A stretch of DNA of 64,000 nt, taken from contig PYIU01000001.1 of assembly GCA_003415625.1 (NCBI GenBank), forward strand, positions 5,580,746-5,644,745, given 5' to 3'. The position numbers were made by a program, and so were the translations under genes. Shown in pieces: positions 20,440-56,936 of this stretch. The number at the start of each line of letters is the position of its first letter. The first letter of the stretch is position 1. Source of the DNA: Aquanectria penicillioides (Eukaryota > Ascomycota > Sordariomycetes > Hypocreales > Nectriaceae). The notes under the pieces are model-generated. The model had not been told where the DNA came from and ran no database searches. It was given only the letters and a program-made list of their open reading frames with translations.

Positions 20440-21884
<1,445 letters not shown>

Positions 21885-22921
21885 GGTTTGAGGGTCGGGT
21901 TGAAGGCGGATGGCGGAGGGAGAGCTGTGAGAGAATGACGTTGGCGTGGGCGTTGACGTTGACGTTGCGGTCACGCCTGAATCGCGAGCGGTGGGGCACG
22001 AGGCACAAAGGCGGCGTCAGGGGCGGAGAAGGCGAGCGAGGGCGGAAAATAGACGGAGGAGAGGAGGTCGACGGCGGCGGTGGGCGTCGAGACGTTGGGG
22101 ATGAGAGTTGCTTTTGGATCGTGGGAGGCACACGACCGATTTGTGGGCGGGTGGTTTGTTGGTGGGCAGAGATGAGGGAGGGAGGGAGGGATGTCAATAG
22201 TTGGGGGGGGGGCTCCAAGTTCAGCCTTGGGCTGGAGATTGCTCCAGGGCCTTCGCTTAATCCCACTGTGCACTGTGTCTGTGTCCTGTGTGGCGGGAGC
22301 AGGCACAGTGGCGACATCCTGTTGCTGTGGCGGGACCTTGTTAGTTTGGGTTCCAATGCTTACAGCTGCATAGGGACCCCCAGCAGGTCCTTGGGTTAGA
22401 GCTTGCGCCCCCCTTGTGGCGTTGGCACCACTAAAAAGAGAGCTGACAACCACACAGTATCAACAAAAGTCTACACACTGTCCGCAATAGGAGGATCGTT
22501 CTCTGGTTTCAAGAGGATGAAAGCAACCTGAGCGATGAGATATAATGGTCGCCCCCACCGTATCTAGGTATATATCGCACAATATGCGACTTTAGTATGA
22601 ATTTGAAGCAACCAAGCCCTTTGATAACGTTTAAGTCTTCAATTGTGTCCTCTCTGGTTTTTTATACCTTCAAAACAATCTGCATTCCAAACAGACGGAA
22701 CCGGAATCACTACAACAACTACCCCATGGGGTTAGAGAGCAGCTGTGACATGGGAGTAGATTCACTCATTCACAGCTGGCCACAGTATATATAGCATAGG
22801 ATACGAGTTTTGAGTGAAAAGAAGAAAAATATTTATGTCCCAGTGCCCAAACTCCTTCAACCCCATTCAAGTTTCCATGGTCCTCGTCTTCTCTGCTTAC
22901 ATATCGCATTCATTCATTGTC
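21885..22921. other. PP2A 5' region and EXO84 3' flank
   Basis: Minus-strand leader and promoter of PP2A. 21.9-22.45 kb is strongly biased (minus strand Pro/Ser-coding by composition) with an open frame that starts at 22453 and runs to 21971. It shows no family motif and may be a long 5' UTR with upstream ORFs. 22.5-22.9 kb is AT-richer and contains nothing recognisable. Confidence 0.4.
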
Positions 22922-25059
22922 TTACGGTGACAGGCCCAGCCCGACAGGTGCCTCACTCTGCCCAGGCGGCACATCCAGGCCTTTCCCCACCATGTTCATA
23001 AAGTCCAGTCCAACCTCGGACAATTTCGAAGCATGCTCCTTGGCCCTCTCCATGCATTGTGTCCACACGGTGCCTCCAGGCTCGGTGCTGCTAAGCTGTC
23101 TGGCTAGAATAACGTTGAATGCCTCTACCTCCTCCGTAGCCCACTTGACGCAGGCACTCATCATGGGTGGCGGGAAGCATGATTGAAAACTCTGTACAGT
23201 GTTGTGGATTATCATAAAGTAGACAAACGATACCTCCCAAATGTACAGGTGCAAGTCGCCCTGGAAAATGCACTGTCTGTATCGAGTGTGTTAGTAAAGA
23301 TTGTCCTCAAAATATTCTTGTGTCTCACTGACCTAGATCGTTTGTGAATAGTTTTGCTTCTGGCCGCCAAGTACGCCTCTCTGGCCTTGTCCTCGAAGCC
23401 CAGCCTCGTCAACCAGCTGACGTTGCGTCGTGTCTTTGTTTGCTCATTGTGTGTCAACTCGAGTTCGCGAACGATCATGCTTGCTAGCTTTGCACATCGC
23501 TCTTCGGCCTTGAAGTTGATGAAGTCCTGCGCAACTGCATTGTTTTTGAGTCCTCGAGCTAGCCCCTTTAATTTCTCGACGTGGGCCACCGCAGACTCAA
23601 ATCTCTGGAGCGCAACATCAATGTCCAGCTCATCCATCTGACTTTCCACCCAGCGAAGGTTCTGTTGCTTTCCATCCACTTCAATAAGCATGTCCTTGAT
23701 GTCTGACAGGGTCGCCAGGAGCTCTGTCTTTTGAAGCAGACCAGGGTCTCGGGAAGCAAAATAATTGATAGTCTCTCGAGCTTTGTTGTTGGCTTCCATT
23801 TCGGATCGGAGACCCTTACGGAGCGCTTCGACCGCCTTGCGGACATTCAACAAAAGGCCTCTCTTCTCAGAGTCTTCTGGTTTCTCCGTCCGATAGATGA
23901 AAGATTCCTGACCGACACCTCGAACCATGATTGCATCTGCGAGCTTGTTTCGGCCTCCGCTCGACGATTCTCCGGTGCTCAACATGTCTATAACCTCAAT
24001 GTCCAGCAGGGGCCAGCAACGATCTGCTACCATCTTTACCACCGGGCCTCGGGGGTCAGCGTTTGAGGCATCCGTCTTCCGCTTCTTACGCGAAGCGATA
24101 AGGAGATGGTCGTTGAGGAGAAAGATTTGCATCGCACGACGAGACTTGTAGGTTGCATTGTCCAGTTCAATCCAGGGACCAGCATTTTGGACCACATGGC
24201 GCCCAGATGCGTTTGGTAGGAACTTTTGCGATCCTTCCACATTCTTGTACAAAGCCTGCATCTGCGCGTTCCAGAGCACGCTTCTATCGGCAACAGAACT
24301 GCGCCTGTCTCGCTTCGACGGGGTGGAAACTTCACCGGAAATGTTGGCCTCTTCGCCTTTCATCGACGCGGCTCGCAGAGCGGTTGTGTTGAGTTTGAGG
24401 TCGGACATGAGGTTCTTCAGGGCTCTCATCTCGCCCTTGAGCTTCTCTGCTTCTTTGCTGATCTTGATGAACTGTGTCCGGTTTTGCATGACACTCTGCT
24501 GAAGGTCGGCGGCGGCTCGAGTCTTGAGAATCCGCAACTGGTCTTCAAAGTCGCGGATTTGGTCTTCAGTTGCTTCGCTTAATGCATTAGACACGTATTG
24601 GTCGGGGACGAGAGAGGGGTCTCGCAATGCTTTGATATCGATGACTGGGTCAGCACCAGCTCCCCGCGAAGGGGGTGGTCGATCTTGTTGTCCACGGTCT
24701 CGGGTCATGTTGGCGAGCGAGGGCATCCGGGGCATCTGGGGCATAGGCGGAGGGGCGGCATCGTATCCGGACGGGGTATTGTTAAATCGAGTTGAGTAAC
24801 GTCGCTTCACAAGATCGGATGTCTACACGGCCTAATGAGCATGCTGAGGTTGAGGACACTGGGCAGCGAAGCTTACCTTGCCGCCAGCCACGGGAGGTGG
24901 ACGGGGTCGAGGTCGAGCGGCAGGCTCGGTAGCAGGCGCAGGAGCTTTCGACGAGCCATCTTGAGGGATAGGACTGGATATCTGTCGAGGAGCGCTGATC
25001 ATGGGCCGCTTCTTCCTCTTGCCACTACGAAGCGATATCTTGCTGCGCTCCTCAGACAT
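22922..25059 (-). CDS. EXO84: Exocyst complex component EXO84
   Basis: Four exons in phase (25059-24877, 24822-23333, 23276-23234, 23191-22922) encode 661 residues. The N-terminus is basic and Pro-rich (MSEERSKISLRSGKRKKRP). The segment beginning DPSLVPDQYVSNALSEATED leads into a coiled coil (about residues 130-210), followed by a PH-like domain (NASGRHVVQNAGPWIEL to IYRTEKPED). The C-terminal helical EXO84 region includes LTRLGFEDKAREAYL, QCIFQGDLHLYIWE and SCFPPPMMSACVKW. The protein is a subunit of the octameric exocyst that tethers secretory vesicles at the hyphal tip plasma membrane. Length and order match filamentous-fungal EXO84. It is divergent from TOM20 across about 0.6 kb. The start at 25059 gives a family-like N-terminus; an intron separates it from the main exon. 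Confidence 0.95.
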
Positions 25060-25673
25060 GGTGGGCAAGGCGAGCGTACGGCGGGATGAAGCTGTGGGAG
25101 AGAAAATCAAGAGAAAAATTCGAGTTTGTGGTTAATCCAACAAGGGAAAATGAGGCCTTCGAGGCCGCCAGCGAAAAGAACAGCTGCGCCGAGTGGTGAA
25201 GATGGATGGCTGAAGTTGTTTCATTGAAGCATGCCTGGCCATGGCGTTACGTGAGTTGGAGCTCTCCCCATACAGTGCATAGGTGGACTGGACTACGGCC
25301 TGCTTCGAGCAGTCCCGAGGTACGTACCTTCCCTCGACCTTGAGGTCGACGCCTTGGAAGCTCGAGGCCACGAAGCCGTGGTTTATCCGCTCCAGGAAGC
25401 GCCCCAACGGCCCAATCAGTGGGCCGGACCCGGGCTCCTTCGCTGGGGCTAGTGCTATCATGTGCGGTGCAGTTAGACATGGTACCTAAAAAATTGGTTT
25501 CCAATCGCGACGTCTTGAAAGCTCCCGCTTCACACTTGCTGGCCTTCATTGACGACGTAATCCTCCCTCCTCCCCGTCATCACTCAGCTTCGCGTGCTGG
25601 GCCTCCATCGCGATAATATAATTCTTTCCCTTCCTCTTGGCTAACTCCCGCCCCCACCAATCAATCCGTCAAT
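25060..25673. promoter_or_regulatory. Bidirectional promoter region EXO84 / TOM20
   Basis: 614 bases separate the two divergent start codons. No clear TATA box was seen. The TOM20 side ends in a C/T-rich leader with CCCCCACCAATCAATCC just before the start, typical of constitutive fungal genes. Boundaries are set only by the two coding starts. Confidence 0.5.
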
Positions 25674-26414
25674 ATGGTCCAGACCACCACCGTGGTGACG
25701 GCCTCCGTCGCAACCTTTGCTGCTGCCATCGTCGGTAAGCTTCCCTCAGGGCACCCTGCGAAGCTAGCTGGGGCTGTTGTCGAGTGATAAGCCAACAATC
25801 CATTGCTAACTCTTCCGTCTTCCTTCATAGGCTATGCCGTCTACTTCGACTTCCAGCGTCGTAACCAGCCCGAGTTCCGCCGCAACCTGAGGAGAAACGA
25901 GCGCAAGCAGGCGCGTGCCGAGAAGGAGGAGGCCGAGGCCTCGACCCAGCGACAACGCAACATGATCCGCTCCAAGGTCGAGGAGGCCAAGGACGAGGGC
26001 TTCCCTACTGGTGTCGAGGAGCGAGAGGCTTTCTTCAACGAGCAGGTTATGGCTGGCGAGGTTCTGAGCCAAGATCGTATGACAGCCCTTCCGTCGACAG
26101 CGTCATATAAGAGACATCATGCTGACACTGAACAATAGCTACCAAGACTCTCGACTCTGCTCTGGCTTTCTACAAGGGACTTAAGGTCTATCCTGCCCCT
26201 GGTGACCTGATCCGCATTTACGACAGCACCGTTCCTAAGGTACCCCAGAGTAAACCGGAAACCCAGATCAATTCTTGCGAAACTAACAATTGTCCAGCCC
26301 ATATTAGACATTCTTGCCGAGATGATTGCCTACGACTCGACCCTCGACATCCGAGCCCCCGCTGCCCCCGCTGGCATCAACCTGGCCGATATCCCTAACG
26401 TCGGGCTCGACTAA
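25674..26414 (+). CDS. TOM20: Mitochondrial import receptor subunit TOM20
   Basis: Four exons (25674-25734, 25831-26076, 26139-26239, 26298-26414) encode 174 residues. An N-terminal transmembrane anchor ([20 protein letters not shown]) is followed by the conserved [17 protein letters not shown] cytosolic collar, a charged Glu/Lys/Arg linker helix and the TPR-like receptor region ([15 protein letters not shown]...[16 protein letters not shown]). The C-terminus is IPNVGLD. The protein sits in the outer membrane TOM complex and binds amphipathic presequences of matrix precursors. Length agrees with the Neurospora-type protein. Intron 1 splits the anchor codon in phase 1. The start gives the anchor directly at the N-terminus, as in the family. 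Confidence 0.96.
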
Positions 26415-26756
26415 AAAGGGAGACCAACCACAGTCTCCTAAATTCTGGTTCCCCTCCGCTCCGAGCAAAACCAGACTTAAAAAACGACCCCACCCCCTGA
26501 AAAAAAAACTGAAATCATAGGCACGGGAACTCCCCGGGCCCTGAAATCTGATAAGGAGACCTGACGGCCTTCGATGTACCATAGTCTCGCTCTTTCACCT
26601 TCCATAGAGCTTTGTGTAAACAGGTGTACGTTGAACGATTCCGTAATGGACCTAGGAACGGCAATGCTGGCAGCGTTTCAGTAACACTTGATGAAGTTTT
26701 AATTCTTTCATTTTTTTTTTTTTTTTTTTTTTACTTTTATGTCCCCTCGTTTAATC
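26415..26756. other. Convergent 3' region TOM20 / TYW1 with a T22 run
   Basis: Both genes end here, 342 bases apart. A run of 22 T's occupies 26711-26732. Nothing else was recognised. Confidence 0.6.
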
Positions 26757-29227
26757 CTACGAGGCCTCAATTTTCCTTCCCTTTCTGTCTACCCTGTCAT
26801 CACGGGGATCAAAACCGCCGTTACCCCACGTAGCCCACTCGGGGGTTGCTTCTCCCATGTAGTCCTCAGGCTTCCAATCTCCGTCGGGACCTCGTTCCTC
26901 CAAAAGGTCAAAGAACTTCTTGTAATCAATAGTGGTATGCCACTTGCCGTCCACCTTAAATCTGTCGCTCGCCAGAAGAATGCAGCAGCTGTGAGCGTGC
27001 TCGGCTGCAATGCCATAATTCAGGCCCTTCTCCTGCAACCTCTTCTCCAGGGCCTTGACAAAGTCACAGACTTCCCAGTAGAACGGCACGTTCGACATGC
27101 TGAGGCCTGCGTTGGAGGAGGTGGCTGTACCACAATATGTGACGCCCTTGACCTCTACGAAGCACGGGAGACCTTTCTCGACTAATTTTGCGTAACCCTC
27201 GGCCTCTTCTTCAACATTGAAGCCCTTGACCAGCGTCAACCGGAATACAGTTCGGTGGCGGAAACGCTTCTCACGAAGGATCTCGAGGCATCGCTGGAAC
27301 CGCTCCCAGAAGTCTCGGTGGAGGGGTCGATCAATCCTGCGCAGTGACTCCTTGTCGGCTGCGTCAATGGATACGTAAAGCTGTGTGACAGCTTTCAGTG
27401 CAGCCAGCTGATCGGGGTGCTGAGCATTGCAGACCAAGAAGGAAGAGATTCGCTCCTTGTGCAACATCTCCAGAAACTCGTTGATGTAGGGGTAAAAGAT
27501 GGGCTCGCCGACAAGCGACAGCGCGCAGTGCCGGATCTGCATGGCCTCGGCAAACCGCTCTGCTCGAACACCAGGCATCCCGCGCAACATCTTGATTTTC
27601 TTGTAGTGGTTCATCTTGACGCCCTCAAAGATCATGTCCGGCGGGTCTACCACCCATCGCCAAGTCGTTCCGACAGGGTTGGTGCCGTGGCGCCAGCAGA
27701 ACACGCACTTGTTGGAGCAGGACAGAGACGGAGTTGTCTCCATACATTGATGAGAATTGATGCCGTAGAATGAAAACTTGTAACAAGAGCCTCGGCCACG
27801 GAGGGCCGACTTGGTCCATCGGCATGTCTTGACTCCAGAATGGGAGCCCACAATGGCATATCCTTGCTTGGTTAGGGACTTGTAGGTGGGGGAATCCTTG
27901 GCAACCATTTCCTTGGGTCCTTGAGGCATTGTCTTCTTCTTTGTTGATGAGCCATATGAGGTGAAGTCGACAGCGAGGGGTGCCTTTTGAGATCCATTTT
28001 CCTTTCGAATCATTTTTCCAAGATCCTCCACGTCATCAAGGGTCCCTCCAGGATTCTTCTTCTTGTTGTTGTTGCTGTCAGAAGTCTCGTCGTCGAAGAC
28101 AACTTCGCCATCCTCTTCATCCTCTGCCTCGTCCACGTCGCTCTCATCGGGGGCGCCGCTTCCAGGAAGGCCTTCGCCGAGGTTTCCTGTGCGGGAGACG
28201 TGATCAATAACTTCTTGGACACCCTTGGTCCACTCTTGTAGTCGCTCCTCATGATCGCTCTTCATGTCTCCCATTCCAACTGGATATGCCCTCTTGCGGG
28301 AGGTCAACTTGGCCATCCATTTGTCGATCTCTTTGGCCTGGAAGCAGAAGCCTTCTGGCTCAGTAGGCCAGTTTTCCTTGTCGCCAAAGCCAAAGACAGA
28401 GTATCCTAGCAAAGGCGAAAGGGGAGCCGTGTCGATACGGAAATCATGATGAGTCTCCTGCAAGTGCTCGAGGAAAGTGTCGTTGATGGAATCGATGTTG
28501 TAGCTGGGGATGAGGAATAGGTAGAACTGGTCGGCGTCGCCGTGCACTTTTGAGGGAGTAATGAAGTAATCATCAAAATCAATCTCCGCCAGGTCGCGAA
28601 GTTGCGGCTTGAGGAACGTTCGACCCGACTGTTTAGCCAATTGATCCAAAGAGTCTTCCAGCTGCTTGGCGTATTCCTTTGCAATCTTTTCCGTCTTGGT
28701 GGTCACGGACGTGAAGAAGATTAGCAGGAGTACAGGGCGGCTCAAATCCAGGTCATCATCTGCTTTCTTAGTCGGCTTCTTGGCCAGCCCTCCTTTGATT
28801 CTTCGGGGTCCTTGGGATTTGACATCCTTCTTCAATTCGGGTTTGGGCGCCGCCTTCACGATCGGGGTCTTTTCATCGAGGGCAAGTTTCTCAGGCTGTT
28901 GAAAAACCTTTGGCAATGCGACTAGCTCGTTCTTTTCGGCATGCAGGTGGAGGTAGATTCGTGCAGCGCCGAGAACGGCGAGGAGGGCAAAAATTATCGG
29001 AGTTCGATGGATGTGCCAGACTTCGACCAGATCTAGCAGGCAGGTTAGCGGCGCTGGGCACTGCGACGAAGCGCCAGAAACTCACCATCGACAATGGAGT
29101 CGAGTCGCAGAGGCGACGAGTGGTTGGCCCAGTCCATCCCGGAAATGCGGTCGCTGCAGTTGGGCGGCAGCGTTGACGAGATGTTGAAGCTTGTGGTAAT
29201 GTCAAGTCCGTCCGGGGGAAAAGCCAT
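26757..29227 (-). CDS. TYW1: tRNA wybutosine-synthesizing protein 1 (TYW1), radical SAM/flavodoxin enzyme
   Basis: Two exons (29227-29086 and 29032-26757) give 805 residues. Near the N-terminus, after the intron, is a hydrophobic segment TPIIFALLAVLGAARIYL that would anchor the protein in a membrane. A flavodoxin-like domain follows (VLLIFFTSVTTKTEKIAKEYAKQL, with YSVFGFGDKENW), then an acidic linker with poly-Glu/Asp. The radical SAM core has the CxxxCxxC cluster motif within SCSNKCVFCWRHG, and MMNHYK/GMPGV-type TYW1 signatures come after it. It catalyses formation of the tricyclic base 4-demethylwyosine from m1G37 of tRNA-Phe using pyruvate and SAM. Length agrees with yeast TYW1 (about 810). 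The exon 1 start at 29227 is the only ATG giving an in-phase junction. Confidence 0.95.
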
Positions 29228-29683
29228 TTTGCCCCGCCACTCATAATTTTGGTGGGGGGCCTCGTTCGTCATGGCACATTGCCAATCGAATGGCGACGAT
29301 TTGATCAGCGAACCACACCTTTTTCAATGCCCTGGTCGTGGCTTGCCATTCGACCAGCTGGAATATTTTCCGATGCGCCTTTCAACGAGGACTAAAGAGG
29401 TGATAAAATTTTATTAGGCAATGAAGAAAATCAATTTCATCTATTCGTTTTTATTTTTATTTTTCCTGCCGTTTTTCTAACACAAAATGCTTTCCTTCGA
29501 GTCAGGACGTTTTGTTTGTTCGTCCGTAATGCAAATGCTGCAACGCCTGTCTTGATGCTGATCTAATGCTATGCTCGCTGTGAAAATGCTACATGATGCG
29601 TTTGAGTGTGAACCAGGGAACCAAGACGAAAAATAGAATGCAAATGTACACGATGCCTACTCAAAAGTTGGCAAAAGTTATGC
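29228..29683. other. Spacer between TYW1 and the sulfite pump gene
   Basis: 456 bases: promoter of TYW1 and 3' flank of the upstream minus-strand gene. It contains AT-rich stretches around 29.44 kb and no coding signal. Confidence 0.5.
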
Positions 29684-31098
29684 TTAGACCCGCCTGTCGC
29701 CTCCAGCAGCTTGGGACTTTTCTCTCAAATCCTTCAAGCAAGGTGCATGGAACATTTCGCCCGTAATGGCGAGTTTAACTGTTCTGGATGCAACAACCAT
29801 CCACAACAATACCACGGAGAGTGAGAGAATCTAGAAATCATTAGCCATGTTCCCACCAAGTAAAAGTGGTAACGCACCATTGTCGACACCTTGAAAAAGT
29901 CGCTGTCAAGATTTATCGCCAAGGCGCTGGTGCATGTCGCCAGCACACCCAGCGGGAACGTGAATCCCCACCATCCCATGTTGAAGGGGAAATGTTGCAT
30001 CGTACCGATGCTAATCAGGGCAAATGACAGCCAAACCAGAGCGAATCCCCACATGATCATAGCCATGAAGACACCCAAGACGTAGAGGATCTCCCCACCA
30101 CGAAGAGCAAGAGACCCAAAGGCATTTGTCTCGGGAAGCAACTTCATGGCCACCTTTCCGAGTTGCTGAATGCCATATCCACCTTGACCCCAAGGTCCAA
30201 TGGGCAGGAAGACGGAAACAATGACCTCCTTCGGCGGGATGGAGTGGATGGTAAGGCGATGGAAATACAAAGCCAACACACAAGCGGAGAAAGACTCGCC
30301 GATGCCCCAGAGTACGTAAGATGTGATGACTGTAGTCATGGCATGGTTTCGGTCGGGTATCACTTCAGCCAAAATGCCCCCAGAAGCGGCGGCGACTACA
30401 GCCGGCACAATTGGGAGGAGCAGGGCGGCCGTGATATTCTCCAGTCCAGGCCGATGACGGTGCATGACAATAAAAGGCATCGTGATGCAAGTAGCAACCG
30501 ACAGCAGAACATCAATCCACCAAAAGGACCAGGCTAAGGAGATGACCCAGTCGCCCCACCCCTTGCAGCAGAAAACCATCATGTTGATAATCGCTACTCT
30601 CACGTCAGCGGCCCGGTCGAGTGGTGAAGGGCTCGAGAAAACCCACTAGCAAAGCCCATTGGGAAACACCCCAAAAACAAAGACTGGCCCGGGTGGGCAA
30701 TCATGGCCCCCAAATCTCAGGATACAAGGTATATCGAGCAATCGAAATCCCCAGGAAAATGGTAAAGAGGACAACATTCAGCCCAAAGAAGATGTAAGAG
30801 ATGCACTGCAACCACTCTGCGTTGTATGGGAGGTTGTGGAGGAGGATGGACACGATGCCAGTGCCCATGTTGACCGCAAACCATCTACAATCGGAACCAT
30901 CTTGTCAGATTTGCTCACGCCCATCACCCAAGTTGTGCAAATCTGGGATAGAGTGAATGGTACTTACGACGGAGTGAAGTTCCGCACAACCCGACGCCAG
31001 CCGACATTCTCTTTACAGGGGAGTGAAGATTCGCAGGGTCGGGGGGCGCCGTCACACGCCGCCTGGCCGTTGGATAGCGCGGGAGCCTGGTAAGACAT
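29684..31098 (-). CDS. SSU1-type sulfite efflux pump (TDT family), frame broken by one base
   Basis: Four exons: 31098-30968, 30884-30647, 30593-29878 and 29830-29684. The predicted protein of about 410 residues has the family start (WRRVVRNFTPSWFAVNMGTG) and about ten hydrophobic segments, for example AALLLPIVPAVVAAASGG and ILYVLGVFMAMIMWGFALVW. FFKVSTM and VKLAITGEMFHAPCL lie near the end. The family exports sulfite across the plasma membrane. The reading frame is interrupted in exon 2: after PEIWG the phase changes at a G5 run (plus-strand C's 30707-30711), producing TGA. Summed exon length is 1,232 nt, one short of a multiple of three, so a single missing base accounts for it. This could be a sequencing error or a recent pseudogene. 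It is divergent from cysteine dioxygenase, which supports the sulfite assignment over malate transport. Confidence 0.85.
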
Positions 31099-32076
31099 GA
31101 CGATAGGTGATGGTAGGCTGCTGGTAAATGATGGCAGCGAGCAATGATGTAAATCGAACATCAGGTGGTATGAGGGCGAGCAACCGAGAGTTTGACTAAA
31201 ACAACACCGAGAGCTCGTGACTCAGTGTCCAGGGTGCCGGCTCGCGGTGTCAAAGCTTTACCATATGGGAAAGAAGTTTCTGAGGATTCGACGCAAAGCC
31301 CCGACTCTTCTTCCCCAGGAAAGCATTTGGTTCATCTTATACAACATGCCGGCGCTCAGGCGAATTGCCACTTGCGCCGTTGACGGAATTCCCAGCCTTT
31401 CCGATAACCGGCTTAGGGCCGAAATCTCGTGGCGTGGCCGGACCCTCCGATGGAGCAATTGAGCGCAGGCGGTACGGTACCGACAGACTAACAAGCAAGC
31501 GCCTTACGTACAGGTAGCGCACGAACGTCCAAAAAAAAATTGATCTAAATATTGATCCACAGCGATGGTGGGCCTTTTGGGGGACGTAGAAATGCATTGT
31601 TTCTTCCACCTTGTTTATATGCGGTCATTCCCGATGAAATAAACTCCCTCTAGAATCCCTCCGCCAGCAACAATCCGCCTCCACATCCGGCCTCGTGCCG
31701 AAGATAACGCCGTCGCCGCGGAATCCGACCGTCAAGGAAGTCCTCAGCAACCTTAGTGTCCCAGCGTCCAACCAGAAGCGCTAAACTCGCTCACCAGACC
31801 CTGTGGTTCGCCGACGCAGCCCGTCAAATGATGTCGGTATCGATTAAAGACCCACAACCCAACGTCGGTGTTACTATCTGCCGGTTTGTCGTTCCCGGTC
31901 CTGACCGATGGCAGGGAGCAACAGCATGGCCGCGCAAGTCGTCGTCGTCAACCCCCGCTCCCATTCCCGCTCGTTCGACCCAAGTCGGTGTGTTGTCCAC
32001 TTGTCCATCAGACCTTTGTCAACCAAGATCAACCATACTATCATATAGCAATCATCATCATCAACTTCATCAACAC

Positions 32077-32108
<32 letters not shown>

Positions 32109-32130
32109 ACAACTATCCCACACTGCAAAC
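31099..32130. promoter_or_regulatory. Shared divergent promoter of the sulfite pump and cysteine dioxygenase genes
   Basis: 1,032 bases lie between the two start codons. A frame upstream of 32131 is open from 31756 but has no family resemblance and is more likely leader. No convincing CYS3/MetR-type palindrome was found by eye. Co-regulation by sulfur amino acids is inference from the products. Confidence 0.5.
32078..32109 (+). repeat. (ATC)n microsatellite in the cysteine dioxygenase leader
   Basis: About ten perfect ATC units, preceded by an imperfect ATC stretch from about 32050. It lies 20-80 bases upstream of the start codon, in probable 5' UTR. Confidence 0.9.
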
Positions 32131-32907
32131 ATGGCCGTCGGCATTGTCTCTTCCCACTCCATGAGTCTCGGTGTTCCTGCCAAGGTGGGACACTACCAAG
32201 AAAATCTCTTCGAAGAACTCGTCGTGGCGTTAAAGGAGGCACTTGGTCCATCGTCGGGTCTAACGTGTGACGATGTCAACCTCGATATCCTAACTCGTCT
32301 CATGGAAGGCTATGATGGCTCCGACAACCTGTGGTCCAGGTATGCCTTTGGTGATCATAGTCGGGGTTATACTAGAAACCTAGTTGACGAAGGCAACGGC
32401 AAGAGTAACCTGGTGAGTGTAGTCGAGGTCAACTCGACCTCGTCCAACCAATCAATCTCAGCTAAATGGTGCAATAGCTTGTACTTGTCTGGACTCCTGG
32501 CAAGGGCAGCCCTATCCACGATCACGGCAATGCTCATTGCTTGATGAAGATCCTGCGAGGGGATCTAACCGAGACGCGATTTGCCTTTCCAAAGAAAGAG
32601 GGGGAAGAACAATTGGAAGTTATATCAGAGAAGACATATAAAGAAAATGCTGTGGCCTATATGGCCGACGAGCTAGGACTCCACCGTGTGTCCAATAAGG
32701 GTAGCGACTTCGCTGTGTCCCTGCACTGTAGGAGCCCCCCCCTAGTCGCCAACGCTTGTCACGCAACTAACCCGCAACTTTGCAGTGTATACTCCGCCAA
32801 ACGTGGCCAAGAAAGGGTGCCACATCTTTGATGAGAAGACGGGACGAAAAAGCCATGTGCCGGGTTGCCACTACTACTCGGTATATGGCAGACTGCTCAA
32901 TGAGTAG
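32131..32907 (+). CDS. Cysteine dioxygenase
   Basis: Three exons (32131-32412, 32478-32727, 32786-32907) encode 217 residues. The cupin core is clear: HDHGNAHC holds two of the iron-binding histidines and the cysteine of the Cys-Tyr cofactor, and VSLHLYTPP holds the third histidine. The C-terminal CHYYSVYGRL could supply the partner tyrosine. SRYAFGDHSRGYTRNLV contains the substrate-binding Arg region. The enzyme oxidises L-cysteine with O2 to cysteine sulfinate in the cytosol, the step leading to sulfite or hypotaurine. Length is usual for fungal CDO. It is divergent from the SSU1-type pump, which would expel the sulfite formed. The ATG at 32131 gives the usual N-terminal length; earlier in-frame ATGs would add unrelated sequence. 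Confidence 0.93.
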
Positions 32908-35009: not shown

Positions 35010-36304
35010 ATGGTCGACCCATTGAGTGCCGCGGCGTCGGTAATAGCAATAGTAACAGTCACAGTGCAGTCCACCAAGATATTGTACGATACCGTCAACA
35101 GTTTCAGGACACATCAAAATGTGGTTTTGCGACTAATGCGTGAACTCCACGCACTCAATAAAGTCCTGGATGCTCTGGGTGACCATGTGCAAACTGATGA
35201 TGCGGCCTTTGATCCGCTCAAGTTTCCATTAATCCAATGTTGCCACGCATGCACAGAGTTCAAGGGCATTCTAGATGACTGTTCTAAGAATTCAAAAGGT
35301 TCCAGAACTAGTTTTCGCGACTGGTGTAGACTGAGCTTCATGAATGGCAGCATCGTGACATTTACAGACATGTTGGCTGGTTATAAGTCAACAATAAACA
35401 TCGCGCTTGCCGATGCTCACTTGTACGACATCAACTACGAGGAAAGAAAGTACCCTAACCGTTTTTTAGGCGTACCACCAAAGTGACTTTAGAAGCGTTG
35501 AACGAATATAAAGACTTAATCCATGATTCGAAACACGAATTAGAGGAGCATCTGAGCGACATCAGTGAGAAACTACAGCGACTTAGCCCTTCGGATCAGG
35601 GGCCATCTACTACAATAAGCTCCGAGATGGACCGAATAGCATATGAGAGCAATGGAATCGAGGAATGTTTGAAGCTTTGCAACCAACTTCTTGAACAAAT
35701 CAACACCGCACAATTTCAGATTGACACGGCTAGGCCAATACCAAGAACAAACCTGTTCACGACAACAGTATCACCTCAAGACATGTCTTTGGCAGCTACC
35801 AGGACATTGTCTACATTTAAAGGCTTTAGTTACTCACTCACCGACCACGTGTCTTGGTTACAAACTCAGAAGAAGACTACCGAAGCAAGCGCACGCACCA
35901 ATTCGACAAGGTCATTAGTAGAAGTGGGAGCAGATCCTGAGCGTGATCTTCAAATGCTACAAAAAGAATTGAATAGCACAAAACAACGCTTAGAATTCTT
36001 CGAGGAGGCGTCTTCTCGGGCCTCGTCAGTGCGAGTTCATGTTGTGGAGGACATCACAGTGGGAGACAACTCGCAACAGTTCGTTGTCTCTACAGTAGGC
36101 GATTTGATAAGCGTAAAAAGCGCCACAGCTGGTCATGGATCACTCCAGTTTTTTGGTTCTGCGTCAGACGATGCTTTGCAACACCTCCTCAACGCGGCAC
36201 AGAGTAGGACTCAGAGTGTTCAAGATGGGCGACAGGCGGTTTGCGATGATTCAGTTGTAGCCCAGTTATGCATAAGCGGTGGTGGCAGTTCATCCTCAAT
36301 ATGA
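35010..36304 (+). CDS. Fungal STAND-associated N-terminal domain (PigL_N-like) protein with a C-terminal conserved VED..VGD..VST domain
   Basis: Two exons (35010-35422, 35470-36304), joined through a 47-nt intron with a CTAAC branch point, encode 415 residues. Residues 1 to about 140 (MVDPLSAAASVIAIVTVTV...) match the helical N-terminal domain found on many fungal STAND/NLR proteins and on azaphilone-cluster protein L. A helical, coiled-coil-prone middle (DLIHDSKHELEEHLSDISEK; DLQMLQKELNSTKQRLEFF) follows. At about 36031-36204 is a domain with VEDITVGDNSQQFVVSTVGD, AGHGSLQFFG and LQHLLNAA. I recall this module at the C-terminus of related fungal proteins. There is no NACHT, ankyrin or WD repeat, so this is a small adaptor-like member. 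Function unknown; a signalling or cell-death role is inference. Confidence 0.75.
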
Positions 36305-36314
36305 TAAAAATCTA

Positions 36315-36671
36315 TTATTCTTCTGGCGGTCGTATACTTCTGATGTTGCTGTTACCAGTTGCTCCAAGGACATGACCGGTGCCATATGAAGTGCCGAACC
36401 TCCCGTTGCTAGCCGGCTCTTCCTTGGGAACGATCTGACGCTGGCTCAAGATTTTCGTAAGTTCCTGAACCGAGGCTTCCTCCCAAGCGCCGATAACCTG
36501 CCAGGAATTCCACCCGGCTTCGACCTTTGTGGCGTTGTATAAATGGTCTTTGGTCGACACCAAAAGTTGTACCCCAAAATCCCCAACTTTCACATCTTCT
36601 ACTCGGTGCGTGGGGTGGCCGGCAGAGGCATCAGGTTCCTCTGGCGAAGGTGGTGTTTTATTTTGCTCCAT
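36315..36671 (-). CDS. Small protein carrying the same VED..VGD..VST domain as its convergent neighbour
   Basis: A single exon encodes 118 residues. After a Pro/Glu/Ser-rich N-terminus (MEQNKTPPSPEEPDASAG) comes THRVEDVKVGDFGVQLLVST, then KVEAGWNSWQVIGAW and VQELTKILSQR. These align over about 55 residues with the C-terminal domain of the protein encoded at 35010-36304 (shared VED, VGD, Q, VST, AG, S-Q, G, QxL). The tail is Gly/Asn/Arg-rich. The two genes converge with only 10 bases between stop codons. A longer frame upstream (to 36833) is hydrophobic and unlike the family, so I prefer the ATG at 36671. No intron is needed. Function unknown. Confidence 0.65.
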   Translation of the reverse strand: MEQNKTPPSPEEPDASAGHPTHRVEDVKVGDFGVQLLVSTKDHLYNATKVEAGWNSWQVIGAWEEASVQELTKILSQRQIVPKEEPASNGRFGTSYGTGHVLGATGNSNIRSIRPPEE

Positions 36672-37077
36672 GATGTGGCTGTTTTGGGAGCGTTTGAGGT
36701 TGCGCGGAAGTACAAGCAGAAACGAAATGCTAGACAAGATGTTGATGGAGGAAGATGAGGCTCGGTGTCGCCCGATTACCCAACACGTCACATGAGCGGG
36801 GTATATGTGGACCAGGATTAAGCCTGATTCCAAGATCAGCCATCATCATTGCAAGTACAGCCGGATCACATATGTAAAAGCACAGTGGGCGTTAGTTTTG
36901 CAAGCCCGGTTTCACCAATATGGTGATGCCCAATCCGCACCGCTCATCCCGTGGAGTTTGCACCTGGGCGTCCTTGCGTCCGACAATTTCGCCTAAGAAG
37001 TGGACCAAAAGTCTGAAGGAAAATATTCCCAGGACCGTTCAGCTACCACACAATGGTACCATCCACCATACGGACTA
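36672..37077. other. Short spacer up to the TIR element
   Basis: 406 bases: promoter side of the small minus-strand gene and flank of the transposable element. Nothing recognised. Confidence 0.4.
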
Positions 37078-37897
37078 CTAGGGGGGATCTCGAAACCGAC
37101 CATTCCCCCTCCCTTGACAGATTCTCAGTCACGGGGGGCCATTTATTTGCAAAAGGGATGTTGATTTGCAAAATAAAAGGTACTTTAGTCCTTATATAAT
37201 TTAGGTAGTAATTTATGTATTTTCTAACAAATTTGAGATAGACAAACATAAAATATTATATGGGGCAAAGTGGGGCAAAATTACCTAAAATCCCTAACAT
37301 ATCATTGTCGGGACGTTGGAATCGATTGAAGGGATGCTACCCTATAAGGCCAGAGATGCCTCAGAGGGAGGTCATGTGACCTCCCTCTTTCCTTTCTTTT
37401 GCTGTGTTTCAGCTCCCCTAACCCCTCACGATAGCCAGAGTAGTTTTTAGACAAGAACAATGATGATTACTATGACCTAGCAGCTGCTATTACTGTGGCC
37501 TTGACTGTGTCATACGAAAAACCCGGGATTTACCCACAATCATCTAGAACGAGAGGTACTGGACTTTTTGCATATCAATGGCCCCCCGTGACTAGGAATC
37601 TATCACGATCACGGGTCATTAGTTGGAAAAGCGACAGCGATGGGAAAAAGTCCAGTACCTCTGTCACTATATAACTTACTAAGTATTTCAGGTCACTTTG
37701 CACCATCGAGCCCTACTTTCTTTTTATATTTTTGTCTATCAAATTTAGTTAGAATAGTACATGAACTACTATGGAAATTAGGTAAGGCTTGAAGTCACTA
37801 TTTTTTTTCCAAATTGCTGTCGCTTTCCCAACTTGATGACCCCCCCGTGACTGAGAATCTGTCACGGGGGAAGGGTCGGTTTAGAGATCCCCCCTAA
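37078..37897. mobile_element. Non-autonomous DNA transposon (MITE-like) with ~60-bp terminal inverted repeats
   Basis: The left end (37078-37140) and the reverse complement of the right end (about 37838-37897) match closely: both begin YTAGGGGGGATCTC, continue AAACCGACC, and reach GACAGATTCTCAGTCACGGGG. A small indel and a few substitutions separate them. Both ends are flanked by TA, suggesting a TA target-site duplication (Tc1/mariner-like), but GACTA is also shared, so the exact border is uncertain. The ~820-bp interior is AT-rich with no transposase ORF. The subterminal part contains its own hairpin (GTGACtGAGAATCtGTCAC). It inserted in the AT-rich accessory region between the PigL_N pair and the decayed SDR gene. 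Confidence 0.8.
37552..37662. repeat. Internal inverted repeat inside the TIR element
   Basis: Two perfect 18-base arms (37552-37569 and 37645-37662) flank a partial inverted copy of the element's own subterminal sequence (CCCCCCGTGACT...CACGGG...GCGACAGC at about 37582-37640, compared with 37812-37870). This suggests a nested insertion or internal rearrangement. Confidence 0.75.
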
Positions 37898-38788
37898 TAG
37901 TCGGCGTGACTGCAATACATGCCTGTAAAACTAAAAATAACCCCCAGAATTCCAGCAAAGTAAGTACTACATACAGTGAGACGAATAACAATACACATAT
38001 AGCACAAGAAAAACAATCTTCAAAAAATGATTTACCAAGTATATTTTAATTTATCGACAGACAGACTAATGTATCTGCGCTCTCGACCTGTGGTAAATAC
38101 ACCGTCCTGATATCCCTACCCAGTAGGTATATCGTTTGAGCAACTTCTGCACCGGCATGTCACACCAGTACCAAGTCTTAGCTAGCTTTACTCATACATT
38201 GGTCGCTCAGCATGCGACCAACAGATGATGATATGGTCAAGTCGTTTGACAATTTGACAGAAATGAAATCCAAGTCGATTTGCTTGCCTTGGAACCTAAG
38301 CATCAGACCCCTCGGACGGCACCTCAGTCCCGGGATTCAGCCTTACAAGAGACCGGTTTTGAACACATCTTGAATCGTATGCAGGAAAAGCAGGGTTCCT
38401 GGAACCACATCACTAAAACACTTATCACACTCCCGATTTGGCAGAGCCTTCTGTCGCTGTATTGGTGATCTGCGCCATAGCCCCGGGATGGTAGCCATCG
38501 GCCGATCCACCATGCATTAACCCCGACCGGAACCCAGGAAATAAGCTGCTGCATAATAACACGGATGCACCTGCAGCTTCAATAGGATCCATGCCCATAT
38601 AAAAACTATACTTCGTGTTAGTCTCTGGGATAGAGATGACTGAAGTGACGATGAGGAACGCTTGCGTAATCGGGAGACATCACTGTTACGGGAGCCGCAG
38701 CACAGGCTTACAAGAATAATAAATTGCAAGCAAGAAATGTAGCAATCAAGCAAATTTCATTCTAGTAGTTCAAGTTCAGATCCTCAAA
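37898..38788. other. AT-rich spacer, no gene seen
   Basis: About 0.9 kb between the element and the SDR relic. There are short unrelated ORFs only. The last ~200 bases may be the old SDR promoter. Confidence 0.4.
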
Positions 38789-48007: not shown

Positions 48008-50245
48008 GCAGCTCCGTGCTCTGACTGATTCCCGATGGTGATTGGGATCAAGCATGGGGGACATGAGATGATGATACACGAGATTTAACGACGGCCCTGC
48101 CGATGCTCTACGCTATTGACGAGCTGCGAATCCACAACGACCTCTCGGGGTGGCTCAGGGTGTCAGGAACGGATTTTTTTTTTCTTTGTTTCTTGTACGA
48201 CATACATAAAAGTACATCTTTGTAGCAAGGTACAATATAACCTCATGACTACCACACTCTTGTATTTTTTTCATTTTCTCCAGTTCATCCCGTGACAATG
48301 CCTTCCATGCAGCCATCGACATCAACCTCCACCCGATTGGACAAGTCATCCCATCTCATGAACATGTTTGCAGAGGTTCAGATAAAGCTGAGCTGAGGTC
48401 GAATGCCCCCACGCCCAATTGGCTAGCCTCTTGTCTCACCCCTTAGTGCCGCCATTCGCGGGTCGCCATTACCATAGTGAGTATAGCAAAGATTGGAATC
48501 ACCAGGGTTAGCAAATTAGTGTTCAAACACTCGCCCAATCGCCATGGCCAATTGTTTTAGCAGCAACCCCTTGGTTGGCAGGGTCAAAAAATATTCGCCT
48601 AAAAAAATTCCAGGGCCATGTTAGAATCAGTTGCCGTAACACCCATGTCAGTTGACTGCTGAAATCGTTCTAGACCCTTGAACTATATAAAGCGAAGATG
48701 TGGATGCACCACGGTGAATGTTCCATTCTTTGATCTTCGGGTTTCACCTTGATTTTCTTCTAGAATTTAACGTTCCTACGATCATCAAGTCAAATTAGGC
48801 TACGTTGAGGAGAACGTTATGATTTTCAAGGTCCGTCAGCTTAGCGCGCCTGTATCAATGCCATTTTCGGTGCTGCCATCGCGCGATGGGGCCATGTCAG
48901 GGAAGAGGATAACCTAAACACATGGGGTTGTAAACTAACGTTAGTGTATGGCTTGATAAGCTTGGTTCATGTGATTCCTCGCTTCTTGTTGCTCTAGTTG
49001 TTTTTGTTGTTATTGTCTTTGGGTTGAGGGATGTATGGTCAGACTACGTGTCTTGACGCTGTAGCTGTTTGAAAACAAAAATGCACGTCTGAATTCGAAA
49101 CAAGAATGATTGCTTGACAGCGCCGAGAACTCAAACATATCATGGCAGGACATAGTTACGCCGCATTAAACCATTCTTCAAACTTCAGTAAACCATTCCA
49201 CGTTTCTTTCACGGAGCACAACATTGCTGTGCATGTCTCACGTCTACTGCATTTGCTACCCTGGAGCTTGCTACAGTTAAAGAAGGAGAAAAAGCACGGA
49301 CATAGTCAACGGGTGGGTTGCGCAACCGTGCGATTCAACGGTAACACCAGTCTATTGATCCTAGCGTGAGACTGTCAATGATGCCAGAAATGCGTATGTC
49401 TCACCTAAGTTTGGCAGTTGCTCCTGTTGTTTGCTTACTTTGGTGCGACCCATAACATGGTTGGCACATAACGGGCGTACGGACACACACTAGTGAGCTC
49501 ATCCCCTTGACATCAACCACAACAATCATCTTAGAATCCGTGTGTATGGCGCACAGATCGATTCAATCAGGCGATAGAAAACATCTGATCGATCAATCTC
49601 ATCTCTCGCGTAGCTTCATCTAGATTCTAGACCGCCAGTTTGAGATTCCGACACTGACCCATGAAATGGCCGAATTGAGTTGGCTGGGTCATCCATGATG
49701 CAGGGGCGATGGCAGCTTCAGTATTCACATGGATACTGCAAGAATTCCCTGCGTCGGGTAATCCTCGAGTGCATATCCCGACCCCAGAGGCCTTAGCTGA
49801 CATGTTGTTATACCTATATCCAATGAGCTGGATGCACGATATTGAGCCGGGTGTGTGTGCGGGGTGTCGGGTTTTATGCGACCCGCGACACAATTGCCCT
49901 TGACAAGTCGCCATCAAATACAACAAGAACTATTGCGAATGTAACGCTTCATTGAACTATACATTAGTTTGAAATACGTGGCCGTGAACCAACGGCGCAT
50001 GAACAGGGAGGATTTCAGCGTAGGAAGTCGCGAGCTTGCTGATGTGCACTTGCGGAATATCTCGATAATCCGATGCCGGGCAAAAGAAGCAAGTTGAGCT
50101 GCAAGGTAACAAGGAGCGAACGATTGTGCACACGCAGCAGGAAGGCCCGTTTCTGAATCACAGTGAGGGGAAGTCAAAAGAAACAAGAGACATTAATTTC
50201 GCGACCTCGTGGAAGCAAGTAAGTGCAAGCCATCGCGCCTTCGCG
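48008..50245. other. Gene-poor stretch with one orphan promoter-like site
   Basis: No gene supported over 2.2 kb. At 48684-48690 TATATAA, followed 130 bases later by an ATG at 48819 (MIFK, then a possible GTCCGT donor), looks like a gene start. I could not follow a credible coding sequence beyond it. The rest is AT-balanced spacer. Confidence 0.4.
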
Positions 50246-53200
50246 ATGCCTCGAAAGACCAAACGCACTCACGAGCTCATCGACCTCACAGGCGATGATG
50301 AGACGCGTCCAACTAACACCAAGCGACCCGCGTTAGGTTCGCACAACCAATCAACCCAGCAGCGCGCCCAAGCTCCCCCATTTTATCCGGCTGGATTAGG
50401 CGGCACCAGCGTTTACGGAAATACTTCCCTGAACTTGAATAGCCATGCGTCGTCTCCGTACTTCGCCTCCTCGCAAGCCTCGCAAGCCTCGCAAGCCTCC
50501 CAGGCGCCTCTCACTGAGCCAGATGTCTTGGACCTGACTCAAGACAGCGATGAACCAGATCTTGAGCTGTATGGGACTTTTGGTGTGTGTCCCGTACCCG
50601 GATGCCCGTTCTTGCATAGTCTGACACATTATAGCGGGGAATATCGTGGGGGTGCGGTACTATAGGGGCTATGCGTCTCCAGGAGAGACCGTCCTTTGTA
50701 GACGTGAACCTCAGAACCAGGTTCGTGGCTTTGAGCTAAGCGCCTTACCCCAGACTCTATCTTGGGTGGTTGGTGCAACCCAAGGTGACAGGGAAACTAA
50801 TAGCTCAAGTAGTATGATCGAAATGCGATCCGAGTGGACAATGTTGTTGGCGACCAGATTGGCCATCTCCCCCGAAAGGTAGTCGAAAAGGTTGCTCCAT
50901 ACGTGGTAAGGGTGAAATATTAGATCTTGTTCTATTGCATATTGACGAACTCATAGGACCGTGGGGACGTCGTCATCGAGGCCCAGATAACAGGAGAGAA
51001 GGCGTACTACGACTGCCCTGTCAGGCTCTACTTTTACGGCTCAAGCAACCCGACCGACCGCTCCAGAATTGAAGCGTTACTGAAACAGGACAAACTCGTC
51101 AAAGCTACCGAGCTCAAGATCACTAGGAAAGATGCTGAAGCTCGAAGAGCCTTGATGGGGCTGAAGACCGGCAGCTCTGGCTCTGGTCTTGGATCGGACG
51201 CCTATCTCCAGGCTGAGCCAGAGGTTACGCTGGAAGCTCTTCTTCAGACTAGCGAGGCGGTCGAGATGCGCAAAGGTGGCGATGCCATCAAGTCATTGGC
51301 AATTGGGGAGAACCAGTTGGAAAAGATGCCAAAGGCTGATCAACCCGTCCAATTGAAATCCCAACTCTTGCCATATCAGCTTCAGGTAGGTACACAAGAG
51401 AACAGATCCAGGTGTCGCTGCTGACCAGCGTGTAGGGCTTGGCTTGGATGACTTCCAAAGAGAACCCCAAACTCCCTGGAAACGGCTCAAATGATGTAGT
51501 CCAACTTTGGAAACGCGATGGCAAAGGACGATTCTGGAACATTGCATCCGACTTTGTCACTTCAACACAGCCAAAGCTTCTTTCTGGAGGTATTCTGGCC
51601 GATGACATGGGCCTGGGGAAAACCCTGCAGATCATTAGTTTGATCCTGACTGGAGGGGTTGGATCTACTCTGATTGTTGCTCCCGTGAGCGTCATGAGCA
51701 ACTGGCAACAACAAATCCAACGACACGTTAATGCAGACCAGCTCCCCAGCGTCTTCATCTATCATGGCGACAAGAGGGCGACGGCAGAGGAACTGATGAA
51801 ATACGATGTTGTCGTTACTAGTTACGGGAAGCTCGCTAGAGAGCGCGAGAATGGTGTACGAAAAGTATTGCTTTCGCCATCAATTGAGTGGCGTAGAGTT
51901 GTCCTCGACGAAGGCCACACTATTCGCAATGTCAGGACCAAAGTCTCCATGGCTGCTTGCGAGGTCAAGGCGAAGTCTCGATGGGTCTTGACCGGAACCC
52001 CAATGTGAGCATTATTCACCAATTCATCTTATTTAGTGGTCCCTTTAATCGCTGATTTGGTATAGTATCAACTCGGTCAAAGACTTACAGTCCCTCATCA
52101 AGTTCCTCCACATTACTGGAGGCATCGAACAACCCGAAATCTTCAACGCCAGAATCACTCGCCGTCTAGGATCCAACGATAGAAGCGCCGAGATCTTGCT
52201 CCAGGCATTGATGCAAGACCTTTGCCTCCGGCGAAAGAAGGACATGAAGTTTGTGGATCTCAAGTTGCCGGAAAAGAAAGAGTTTATCCACCGAATCTCA
52301 TTCCGACCAGAAGAGAAGCGCAAGTACGATGCTCTACTGTACGCACGATTCTCTGCAACAAACGGAGATGGTAGCTGACATATTTATAGATCGGAAGCCA
52401 GAGGCATGTTGGAAGAGTATCAGGCGAAGTCGACAGCAGGACAAAAGGGTCGTTTCCAAAATGTCCTTGAACGCCTCCTCCGTCTACGCCAAACGTATAT
52501 CTATCCCCAGCCCCAAATGACTTCCCCAGATTTTGACCGTTCAATAGGTGCAACCACTGGACCCTCTGCAGGGAGCGAATTGCCGATCTTCTCAAGCTTC
52601 TCGAAGACCAGGACGTCGTCGTTCTAAACGACAAAAACCGGGCTCTCCTTCAAGAAGCTCTGCGCCTCTACATAGAAAGTCAAGAGGACTGCGCTATTTG
52701 CTATGACACGCCCACATCTCCTCTCATCACAACCTGCAAGCATGTTTTCTGCCAGGGCTGCATCACTCGTGCCATTCAGATTCAAGGCAAATGTCCCATG
52801 TGTCGCAATCAGCTTACCGAGGACTCTCTTCTTGAGCCTGCACCTGAGACAACTGGTGATCAGGCTCTTGTGTTGAATTCTGAGACCCAGAGCTCAAAGA
52901 CAGAGGCAATGCTTCAAATTGTGCAAGCCACGCTACGCAAAGATGGGTCGAAAGTCATCATCTTCTCTCAGTGGACATCCTTTCTCAATATTATTCAGAA
53001 CGTGCTTGATGGTGCAGGAATTAAATTCACCCGCATCGATGGCAGCATGAAGGCGGTCCAACGAGACCAAGCCATAAATGCACTTGACAATGACTCCGAG
53101 ACCCGCATCTTGCTTGCGAGCTTGGCCGTGTGCAGCGTCGGCCTCAACCTTGTTTCTGCTGACACTGTTATCCTTTCTGATAGCTGTAAGTTGATAAAAA

Positions 53201-53472
53201 ACTTGTGTCCGGAATTTCACTTTTTAATGCTTGTATTATTAGGGTGGGCACCAGCCATTGAGGATCAAGCCGTCGACCGCGTCCACCGTCTCGGTCAGAC
53301 TCGCCCGACAACCGTATGGCGCCTTGTCATGGAGGGCACGGTAGAGGAGCGCGTGCTGGACATTCAGCAGGAGAAGCGAGAGTTGGTTACCAAGGCGTTC
53401 CAGGAAAAGACAGGCCAACGGAAAAAGGCCAAGGATACCCGCATGGCAGATGTGCTAAAGCTACTTACTTAA
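50246..53472 (+). CDS. RAD5/HLTF-like SNF2 helicase with HIRAN and RING domains
   Basis: Nine exons (50246-50582, 50635-50720, 50813-50905, 50957-51385, 51436-52004, 52066-52338, 52390-52494, 52548-53185, 53243-53472) sum to 2,760 nt, 919 residues. Two SUMO-interaction-like motifs (ELIDLTGDDE and DVLDLTQDSDE) flank a Ser/Gln-rich linker. A HIRAN domain follows (IVGVRYYRGYASPGETVL to GHLPRKVVEKV). The SNF2 ATPase has Walker A DMGLGKT, DEGH box and LTGTPM. A C3HC4 RING (CAICYDTPTSPLITTCKHVF to CPMCR) is inserted before the helicase C half (IIFSQWTSFL, DRVHRLGQTRPT). The HIRAN-SNF2-RING order is that of Rad5/HLTF: post-replication repair, fork reversal and PCNA polyubiquitination in the nucleus. 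A SUMO-targeted role cannot be excluded. Confidence 0.93.
50471..50501 (+). repeat. 9-bp tandem repeat in the helicase gene
   Basis: TCGCAAGCC repeated three times plus a diverged fourth copy, encoding Ser-Gln-Ala repeats in the disordered linker between the two SIM-like motifs. Length changes here would stay in frame. Confidence 0.85.
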
Positions 53473-53804
53473 TTATGGAACAAATCAAGGTGCCGCCGGA
53501 CTCGACAATAAAAATGGGATATTAGGGAATCACAATTTTAATGAGTAGCAGTTGGTGTCTCATACATGCAAGATGAGAACTTTCGCTTTCATGACACATA
53601 GCTCATAGACAAATGGGCCTGAACGATATTCGGGGAATAAAGTTCTGACCGACAGGTGAAACGTAGTTATTGACGTATTCGGTCATTATTGAATTGTTTT
53701 TGCTGCAATCTACGTGCCTTTTTACACTAGGTAGGTTCTGTTTTTACCCCTTCCTTGGGATACTGTACATGTCGGTTGGCGCAGAGGCTCCCCGACTGCA
53801 AAAT
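53473..53804. other. Convergent 3' region, helicase / NCA2
   Basis: 332 bases of AT-rich 3' flank between two facing stop codons. No features. Confidence 0.6.
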
Positions 53805-56797: not shown

Positions 56798-56849
56798 TGA
56801 GTGAGTGAGTGAGTGAGTGAGCGTGTGAGCGTGTGAGCGTGTGAGTGAG
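56798..56849 (+). repeat. GAGT and GTGTGAGC tandem repeats
   Basis: About six GAGT units run into three copies of an eight-base GTGTGAGC-type unit. Non-coding. Confidence 0.85.
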
Positions 56850-56893
56850 AAAGCGCCGTGGGTGAGGAGGGTCTGGCGTGAGCACCGTGAATT

Positions 56894-56895
<2 letters not shown>

Positions 56896-56934
<39 letters not shown>
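56896..56934 (+). repeat. A39 homopolymer
   Basis: Thirty-nine consecutive A's directly after ATTGC. No retroelement coding sequence or target-site duplication is visible around it, so a retroposed tail is not supported. Confidence 0.95.

Positions 56935-56936
<2 letters not shown>

Follow-up and report, generated by a model that had tools for sequence, protein, structure and literature searches.

The PigL_N gene of Aquanectria penicillioides and its small tail-to-tail neighbour: a common C-terminal module and a complementary tail motif

The two genes and their proteins

We have analysed a stretch of 64,000 nucleotides (the window) in Aquanectria penicillioides, which belongs to a contig of 8.28 Mb; the whole assembly has 53.8 Mb. 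It contains a gene for a PigL_N protein (gene A) and a gene for a small protein (gene B). They are oriented tail-to-tail and their stop codons are 10 bases apart. Their features are collected in Table 1.

Table 1. Features of the gene pair, in positions of the window
Feature	Position	Strand	Basis or remark
Gene A, PigL_N/HeLo-like protein, 415 aa	35010-36304	+	ORF and splice model
Gene A exon 1, protein start	35010-35422	+	ORF, splice model, PF17111 match
Gene A predicted intron, 47 nt, GT...AG	35423-35469	+	brings ADAHL/RTTKVT into the frame seen in the relatives
Gene A exon 2, through stop codon	35470-36304	+	ORF and splice model
PigL_N domain of A (residues 2-209), interrupted by the intron	35013-35683	+	PF17111 match
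C-terminal module of A: two similar 23-residue stretches and a helix	36026-36211	+	module profile match
Residues of A behind the module (..LCISGGGSSSSI), without tail motif	36212-36301	+	
Gene B, intronless, 118 aa; position includes the stop	36315-36671	-	single ORF; 32 relatives
Module of B	36435-36620	-	BLASTP, profile-profile comparison, module profile, structure model
Tail motif of B, FGTSYGTGHVL	36366-36398	-	only match of the tail pattern in a six-frame scan of the 64-kb window

The first frame of gene A stops at 35486 and the protein goes on in another frame past a short intron. An alternative splice of 20 nt is also in frame; we prefer the 47-nt intron because it yields the ADAxLR junction found in the relatives of A. 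The protein matches the full length of Pfam family PF17111 (PigL_N, which is called HeLo-like in the literature): residues 2-209 correspond to profile positions 1-209, with an E value of 2.2e-70 and 236.7 bits for a cut-off of 27.2. Its most hydrophobic stretch is formed by the first 19 residues, with a Kyte-Doolittle value of 1.83. This is a common feature: in 55 of the 61 PigL_N relatives tested the most hydrophobic 19-mer is also found at the N-terminus. Such an N-terminus would be expected for a first helix that seeks membranes.

Neither NACHT nor NB-ARC has a Pfam match in A. In the whole genome there are 63 match rows for NACHT and 11 for NB-ARC, none of them less than 0.77 Mb from the pair; the nearest one starts at 6,388,293 of contig C1, about 0.77 Mb away, and lies under the family cut-off. 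Weak Pfam matches were studied in 43 PigL_N proteins. SesA is found in 24 of them (best E 4.6e-5) and the Rx N-terminal domain (Rx_N) in 11 (best E 0.0031). Two unrelated families, DUF1664 and NPV_P10, have weak matches in 12 proteins each; families of membrane traffic also appear weakly, the N-terminal domain of syntaxin 6/10/61 in six proteins and that of Sec15 in four. The structure model of P0034, a relative of A, is dominated by long helices. A fold search with its full length gives generic helical rows; HeLo and MLKL are absent among the matches listed, which leaves room for such a fold.

The hydrophobic N-terminus, the weak matches with SesA and Rx_N and the HeLo-like class lead us to read A as an executor-type protein. 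In its predicted architecture, a bundle with a C-terminal module, it resembles the executor side of the known fungal systems, unlike NWD2.

Protein B has no match with any Pfam family at E values up to 1. It has 32 relatives with 86-169 residues, all of them with E 1.5e-15 or better. Twelve carry the name of a species or strain, in the genera Dactylonectria, Ilyonectria, Fusarium, Mariannaea and Stachybotrys; the three B-bearing genera that were checked belong to Hypocreales (Nectriaceae and Stachybotryaceae). When the module of B is compared with its own genome, the only match at E values up to 0.001 is B itself. In the structure model of B the module contains strands as well as a helix; the strands have a spacing of 23 residues. 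A comparison by sequence with solved structures gave a single meaningless row (E 7.8). By fold, Foldseek gave two rows only in the PDB, both from the HET-s amyloid and both non-significant, and 20 rows in BFVD, with a best E of 0.52. Three pattern matches were found in IMG/VR contigs, with no relative of B among them.

The common module

The modules of A and B can be aligned over 57 residues without any gap, with 35% identity and a BLASTP E value of 1e-7 (one comparison). When the profile of 17 A-type modules is compared with that of 32 B-type modules the probability is 98.9 and the E value 1.7e-17. Judged by these comparisons the modules of about 60 residues in A and B are homologous, and chance is ruled out. 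A preliminary description of this DNA, made from its letters alone, had proposed such a shared domain and had chosen beforehand a profile comparison as the one that might refute it: the similarity is significant and the domain is confirmed. The coordinates, the orientation and the distance between both stops given in that description were also exact; the intron of gene A was absent from it.

The profile of B can also be aligned with a profile of 31 modules from other PigL_N proteins (E 5.1e-16). The module is present in 75 of 112 PigL_N hits: by this count PigL_N proteins usually carry it at their C-terminal side, and the pair shares it with many others. A profile scan of the six frames of the window gave no copy besides those of A and B; the next row has E 0.27. 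EAD8 (PF19961) was considered as an identity for the module and was rejected. It has a match in A only, with 18.8 bits for a cut-off of 27; it is not among the 25 commonest of the 189 families matched by the 43 PigL_N proteins, and it has no match in 33 B proteins.

An internal repeat of 23 residues is apparent in the module, with p 0.0015 in B and p 0.031 in A. Over all 80 modules it has p 0.0035 (0.0045 in a first run).

We prepared a maximum-likelihood tree of 85 modules from 62 columns; with only 62 columns its inner forks are soft. The B rows form one group (99/97) and the A rows another one (86/90). Both of them, together with P0048-P0053 and a stand-alone module found in contig C8, form a group (100/99) which is apart from 29 other modules; the C8 module has a long branch and its placement is unsure. 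Modules cluster by orthologue in the tree, not by locus. The identity of A and B modules in six pairs is 33.8% within pairs and 33.9% between them. In five pairs the identity to the window copy is 69-76% for B versus 52-62% for A, and by this measure the module of B is under better conservation than that of A. The simplest history would be a partial duplication which gave rise to B, with module and tail, together with the loss of the tail in A.

In the genome of A. penicillioides there are 33 match rows for PF17111. Modules are found in PigL_N proteins of contigs C2 and C11, which are tailed, of C3, and more weakly of C9. Other copies lie outside PigL_N proteins. Near 765,181 of C1 (L049 1291-1998, - strand) there is a frame of 236 codons without PigL_N bundle; it contains a stretch of helical appearance together with the module and a motif similar to the tail. 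Near 4,799,923 of C8 (L038 4669-5157, + strand) the divergent stand-alone module gene adjoins a large ankyrin-repeat protein. Near 1,584,197 of C3 (L039 4420-5946, + strand) a PNP_UDP frame (phosphorylase superfamily) is followed by a frame with a divergent module; this copy suggests that the module may serve another class of fungal effectors too. Module-only proteins are recurrent in this genome; B is distinguished from the others by its position next to a PigL_N gene and by the relatives shown for it elsewhere.

The tail motif

Many modules are followed by a tail motif, F..YG.G..L; this single pattern was used throughout for all the counts. No protein of the A group (P0033-P0053 and P0107, 22 in all) has it, against 42 of the 53 other PigL_N proteins and 31 of 33 B proteins, in which it lies behind the module. 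The window protein A, which is not counted among the 22, has no tail either. The two exceptions in B carry a shortened form of the motif. Shuffled tails match the pattern at 0.0004 or less. Thus the tail is absent from A-type proteins and present in B-type proteins: its distribution is complementary, which is the new result of this work.

Seven of the 22 A-group proteins end 0-10 residues past the module, among them P0041, which is annotated as partial. Some of the 11 other PigL_N proteins without tail appear to be truncated models. Within the tail-less A group, P0048-P0053 include proteins of Neoarthrinium and of Colletotrichum (Glomerellales); no B is listed under these names. We also considered a tail exon missed in gene A. 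This was rejected, since the pattern has no single-frame match in the window outside B; a tail split by an intron would escape this search. To judge from these sequences, B looks like a detached module with its tail, and A like a protein that has none.

The pair in other genomes

In five cases out of 32 a relative of B and an A-type protein are listed on contigs of equal size, which we read as the same contig. In Fusarium sarcochroum P0014 and P0036 are found on a contig of 11,768 bases and have consecutive tags, FSARC_12679 and FSARC_12680. The other cases are P0007 with P0033 and P0100 (3,365 bases), P0010 with P0107 (5,143 bases), P0029 with P0039 (1,871 bases) and P0001 with P0034 in Dactylonectria macrodidyma (1,135,360 bases); the last one indicates a shared contig only, not closeness. 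In the contig of 1,871 bases the genes of P0029 and P0039 take up so much that introns, flanks and the gap between them share no more than about 300 bases. Judged from equal contig size or from tags, A and B genes are close to each other in four further cases. A sixth candidate, P0008 and P0056, both on a contig of 1,562 bp, was rejected: 117 and 419 codons exceed 1,562 bases.

The other 27 relatives of B were not placed on the contig of an A-type protein, which we have counted against a split unit. By name, three of the 12 B species also have an A-type protein (D. macrodidyma, F. sarcochroum and F. lateritium), and the eight remaining named species with an A-type protein, such as D. estremocensis, are all missing from the B matches. 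Both lists are formed by clusters of 90% identity with one name each, and the A-type search scored 7,997 candidates; for these reasons the overlap of names says little either way on strict pairing. In Fusarium oxysporum, another of the 12 B species, protein P0119 (640 aa) has an A-type PigL_N first exon, 75% identical to P0036, behind an unrelated N-terminal part; this fusion is probably a mis-annotated gene model.

Genomic environment

The surroundings of the pair are those of an ordinary region of the chromosome, with neighbours of a housekeeping type. In positions 20715-32541 and 50069-60048 Pfam identifies EXO84, a radical-SAM/wyosine-base protein, a SLAC1 transporter and a cysteine-dioxygenase-like frame; phosphatase-like, helicase-like and sterol-oxidase-like frames are recognized by eye. 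Large open frames are found in 11241-13866 (- strand), one of them with a sacsin match below cut-off. Upstream of gene B, in positions 37073-37902, there is an element of about 830 bp with nested inverted repeats, whose outer arms of 37 nt are 92% complementary. Parts of it give 127 match rows throughout the genome. Its appearance suggests a non-autonomous transposable element with inverted repeats, similar to a MITE.

A proposed division of one protein over two genes

Since the tail has a complementary distribution, we take a split, regulated HeLo-like unit as the best reading of the pair. An ancestral PigL_N (HeLo-like) protein would have been divided, and its parts would now be encoded by a conserved unit of two genes. 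A would retain the helical bundle, whose first helix is hydrophobic, a long helical stalk and the module; the tail motif would be gone. B, made up of a detached module copy and the tail, would bind A or enter its oligomer by module-module contact, provide the tail in trans and in this way gate the bundle of A. Like the HeLo-like domains that have been studied, the bundle probably acts on membranes, and B would be a dedicated regulatory subunit, either licensing or restraining, and not a sensor. Regulation of A by B in trans through the module could, in our opinion, turn out right or wrong with equal ease. Binding of A and B, the sign of the control and the membrane activity are all what we infer; by analogy with other domain-only proteins, restraint seems slightly favoured over licensing.

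A stronger version of the split unit is possible, and we propose it with doubt: a trans-split HeLo-like executor of cell death, whose bundle could not be armed, or could not be kept silent, without the tail subunit encoded by its neighbour. The homotypic module, through which the tail would be supplied, would then be folded and non-amyloid, or a two-rung solenoid; it belongs to the trans-split version as a whole and is equally tentative.

HeLo-class proteins are described as fungal relatives of the necroptosis executor MLKL in the available part of PMC12881547, and membrane targeting and cell death are reported for the HeLo and HeLo-like domains studied (available parts of PMC12881547 and PMC9815663). 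A trans-split executor, if true, would be a new type of wiring in the HeLo class, without NLR and without known amyloid motif. The results also indicate a different C-terminal control module in PigL_N proteins of about 400 residues from several ascomycete groups. They provide a natural experiment: the tail is on the bundle protein in one set and only on its partner in the other, so that the role of tail and module can be directly tested with two small proteins. Our literature search found no paper on the pair or on the module; papers which mention PF17111 or Helo_like_N do so, in their available parts, only in domain lists, in tables or in an NLR setting.

Alternative explanations

B might also be a leftover, or an independent partial duplicate which serves another partner, such as the tail-bearing PigL_N paralogues; its position next to A would then be due to inertia. 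The same genome does have tail-bearing PigL_N proteins on C2 and C11 and stand-alone modules on C8 and near 765,181 of C1. An independent B also fits the equal similarity of A and B within and between pairs, the tail-less A-type lineages in which no B was found and the several named B species without a listed A-type protein. However B has been kept across Nectriaceae and Stachybotryaceae, it is close to an A-type gene in the four readable cases, and it complements A-type proteins in the presence of the tail; furthermore a second module is absent from the stretches of about 10 kb round five other PigL_N loci of this genome. We consider an independent B rather unlikely. An ordinary scaffold is quite improbable: A would be a PigL_N helical protein at work in, for example, membrane traffic, with B as an accessory and no relation to cell death. 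The long helices of the P0034 model and the trafficking matches agree with it, and no phenotype was found for the PigL_N subfamily of A in the literature searched, but SesA outnumbers the trafficking families as well as DUF1664 and NPV_P10, Rx_N matches are also present, and family PF17111 is treated as HeLo-like in the available part of PMC9815663.

The preliminary description had suggested a receptor and an effector linked by a shared motif, perhaps amyloid, as in HET-S/NWD2. In such a pair a two-repeat beta-solenoid module would template its fold across proteins and activate the bundle of A. The layout of A is that of HET-S: a HeLo-like bundle followed by two repeats of about 23 residues. 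The internal repeat is significant, the strands in the model of B have the same spacing, and its only PDB rows, although non-significant, are those of the HET-s amyloid. A published screen for HET-s motifs kept only HeLo-related proteins under 310 aa, according to the available part of PMC4518210; due to this limit the A-type proteins, with about 400 aa, fall outside it. On the other hand, the PP, PUASM and GDQN patterns are found neither in A, nor in B, nor in any of 144 database proteins. Pfam amyloid motifs have no match in A or B at E up to 1 or in the 33 B proteins, a search which covers HRAM and sigma through Pfam. The identity of A and B is no higher within pairs than between them, and the models show a helix in addition to the strands. 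An amyloid pair is thus very unlikely: a trace of it persists in the internal repeat and, weakly, in the PDB rows, and the known motifs are lacking. Nor does A look like a receptor, given the absence of NACHT and NB-ARC in it and in the genome within 0.77 Mb. The assignment of the N-terminus of A to a class known in fungal NLR systems was correct: it is HeLo-like (available parts of PMC9815663 and PMC12881547). The pair does recur elsewhere, judged from equal contig size and locus tags, contrary to the second outcome by which that description would have been refuted. What is left of the proposed two-component module is the shared domain and the recurrence; the receptor-effector reading is not supported, neither partner being an NLR.

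Comparison with known systems

A close architecture is found in single-gene PF17111 proteins, such as P0054, P0058 and P0084. They have the same bundle, stalk, module and tail, but all the parts are in one chain, whereas here the tail is solely in the partner B. In animals there are CARD-only and pyrin-only proteins, stand-alone copies of an interaction domain which regulate the full proteins. B differs from them in that it also bears a motif which its partner lacks; we claim no kinship of fold.

The HET-S/NWD2 system of Podospora anserina, as described in the available parts of PMC3321046 and PMC9815663, also has two adjacent genes with a common short module, and the arrangement is recurrent. 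One partner again has a bundle of the HeLo class, with a two-repeat module at its C-terminal side. The second partner is however different: here it has 118 aa, without NACHT, NB-ARC or repeats. The module is also different, since it has about 60 residues including a helix and its similarity in A and B is no higher within pairs. Furthermore het-s and nwd2 are divergent in Podospora, whereas the window pair is tail-to-tail. The HELLP/PNT1 and sesA/sesB/het-eN clusters also have an effector and its partner clustered, with a common terminal motif (PMC12881547 and PMC3321046, available parts); the window pair differs from them by having neither the PP pattern nor an NLR. Finally, sigma extensions are reported to be more alike within a cluster in the available part of PMC3321046: they group by cluster, whereas the modules of A and B group by orthologue.
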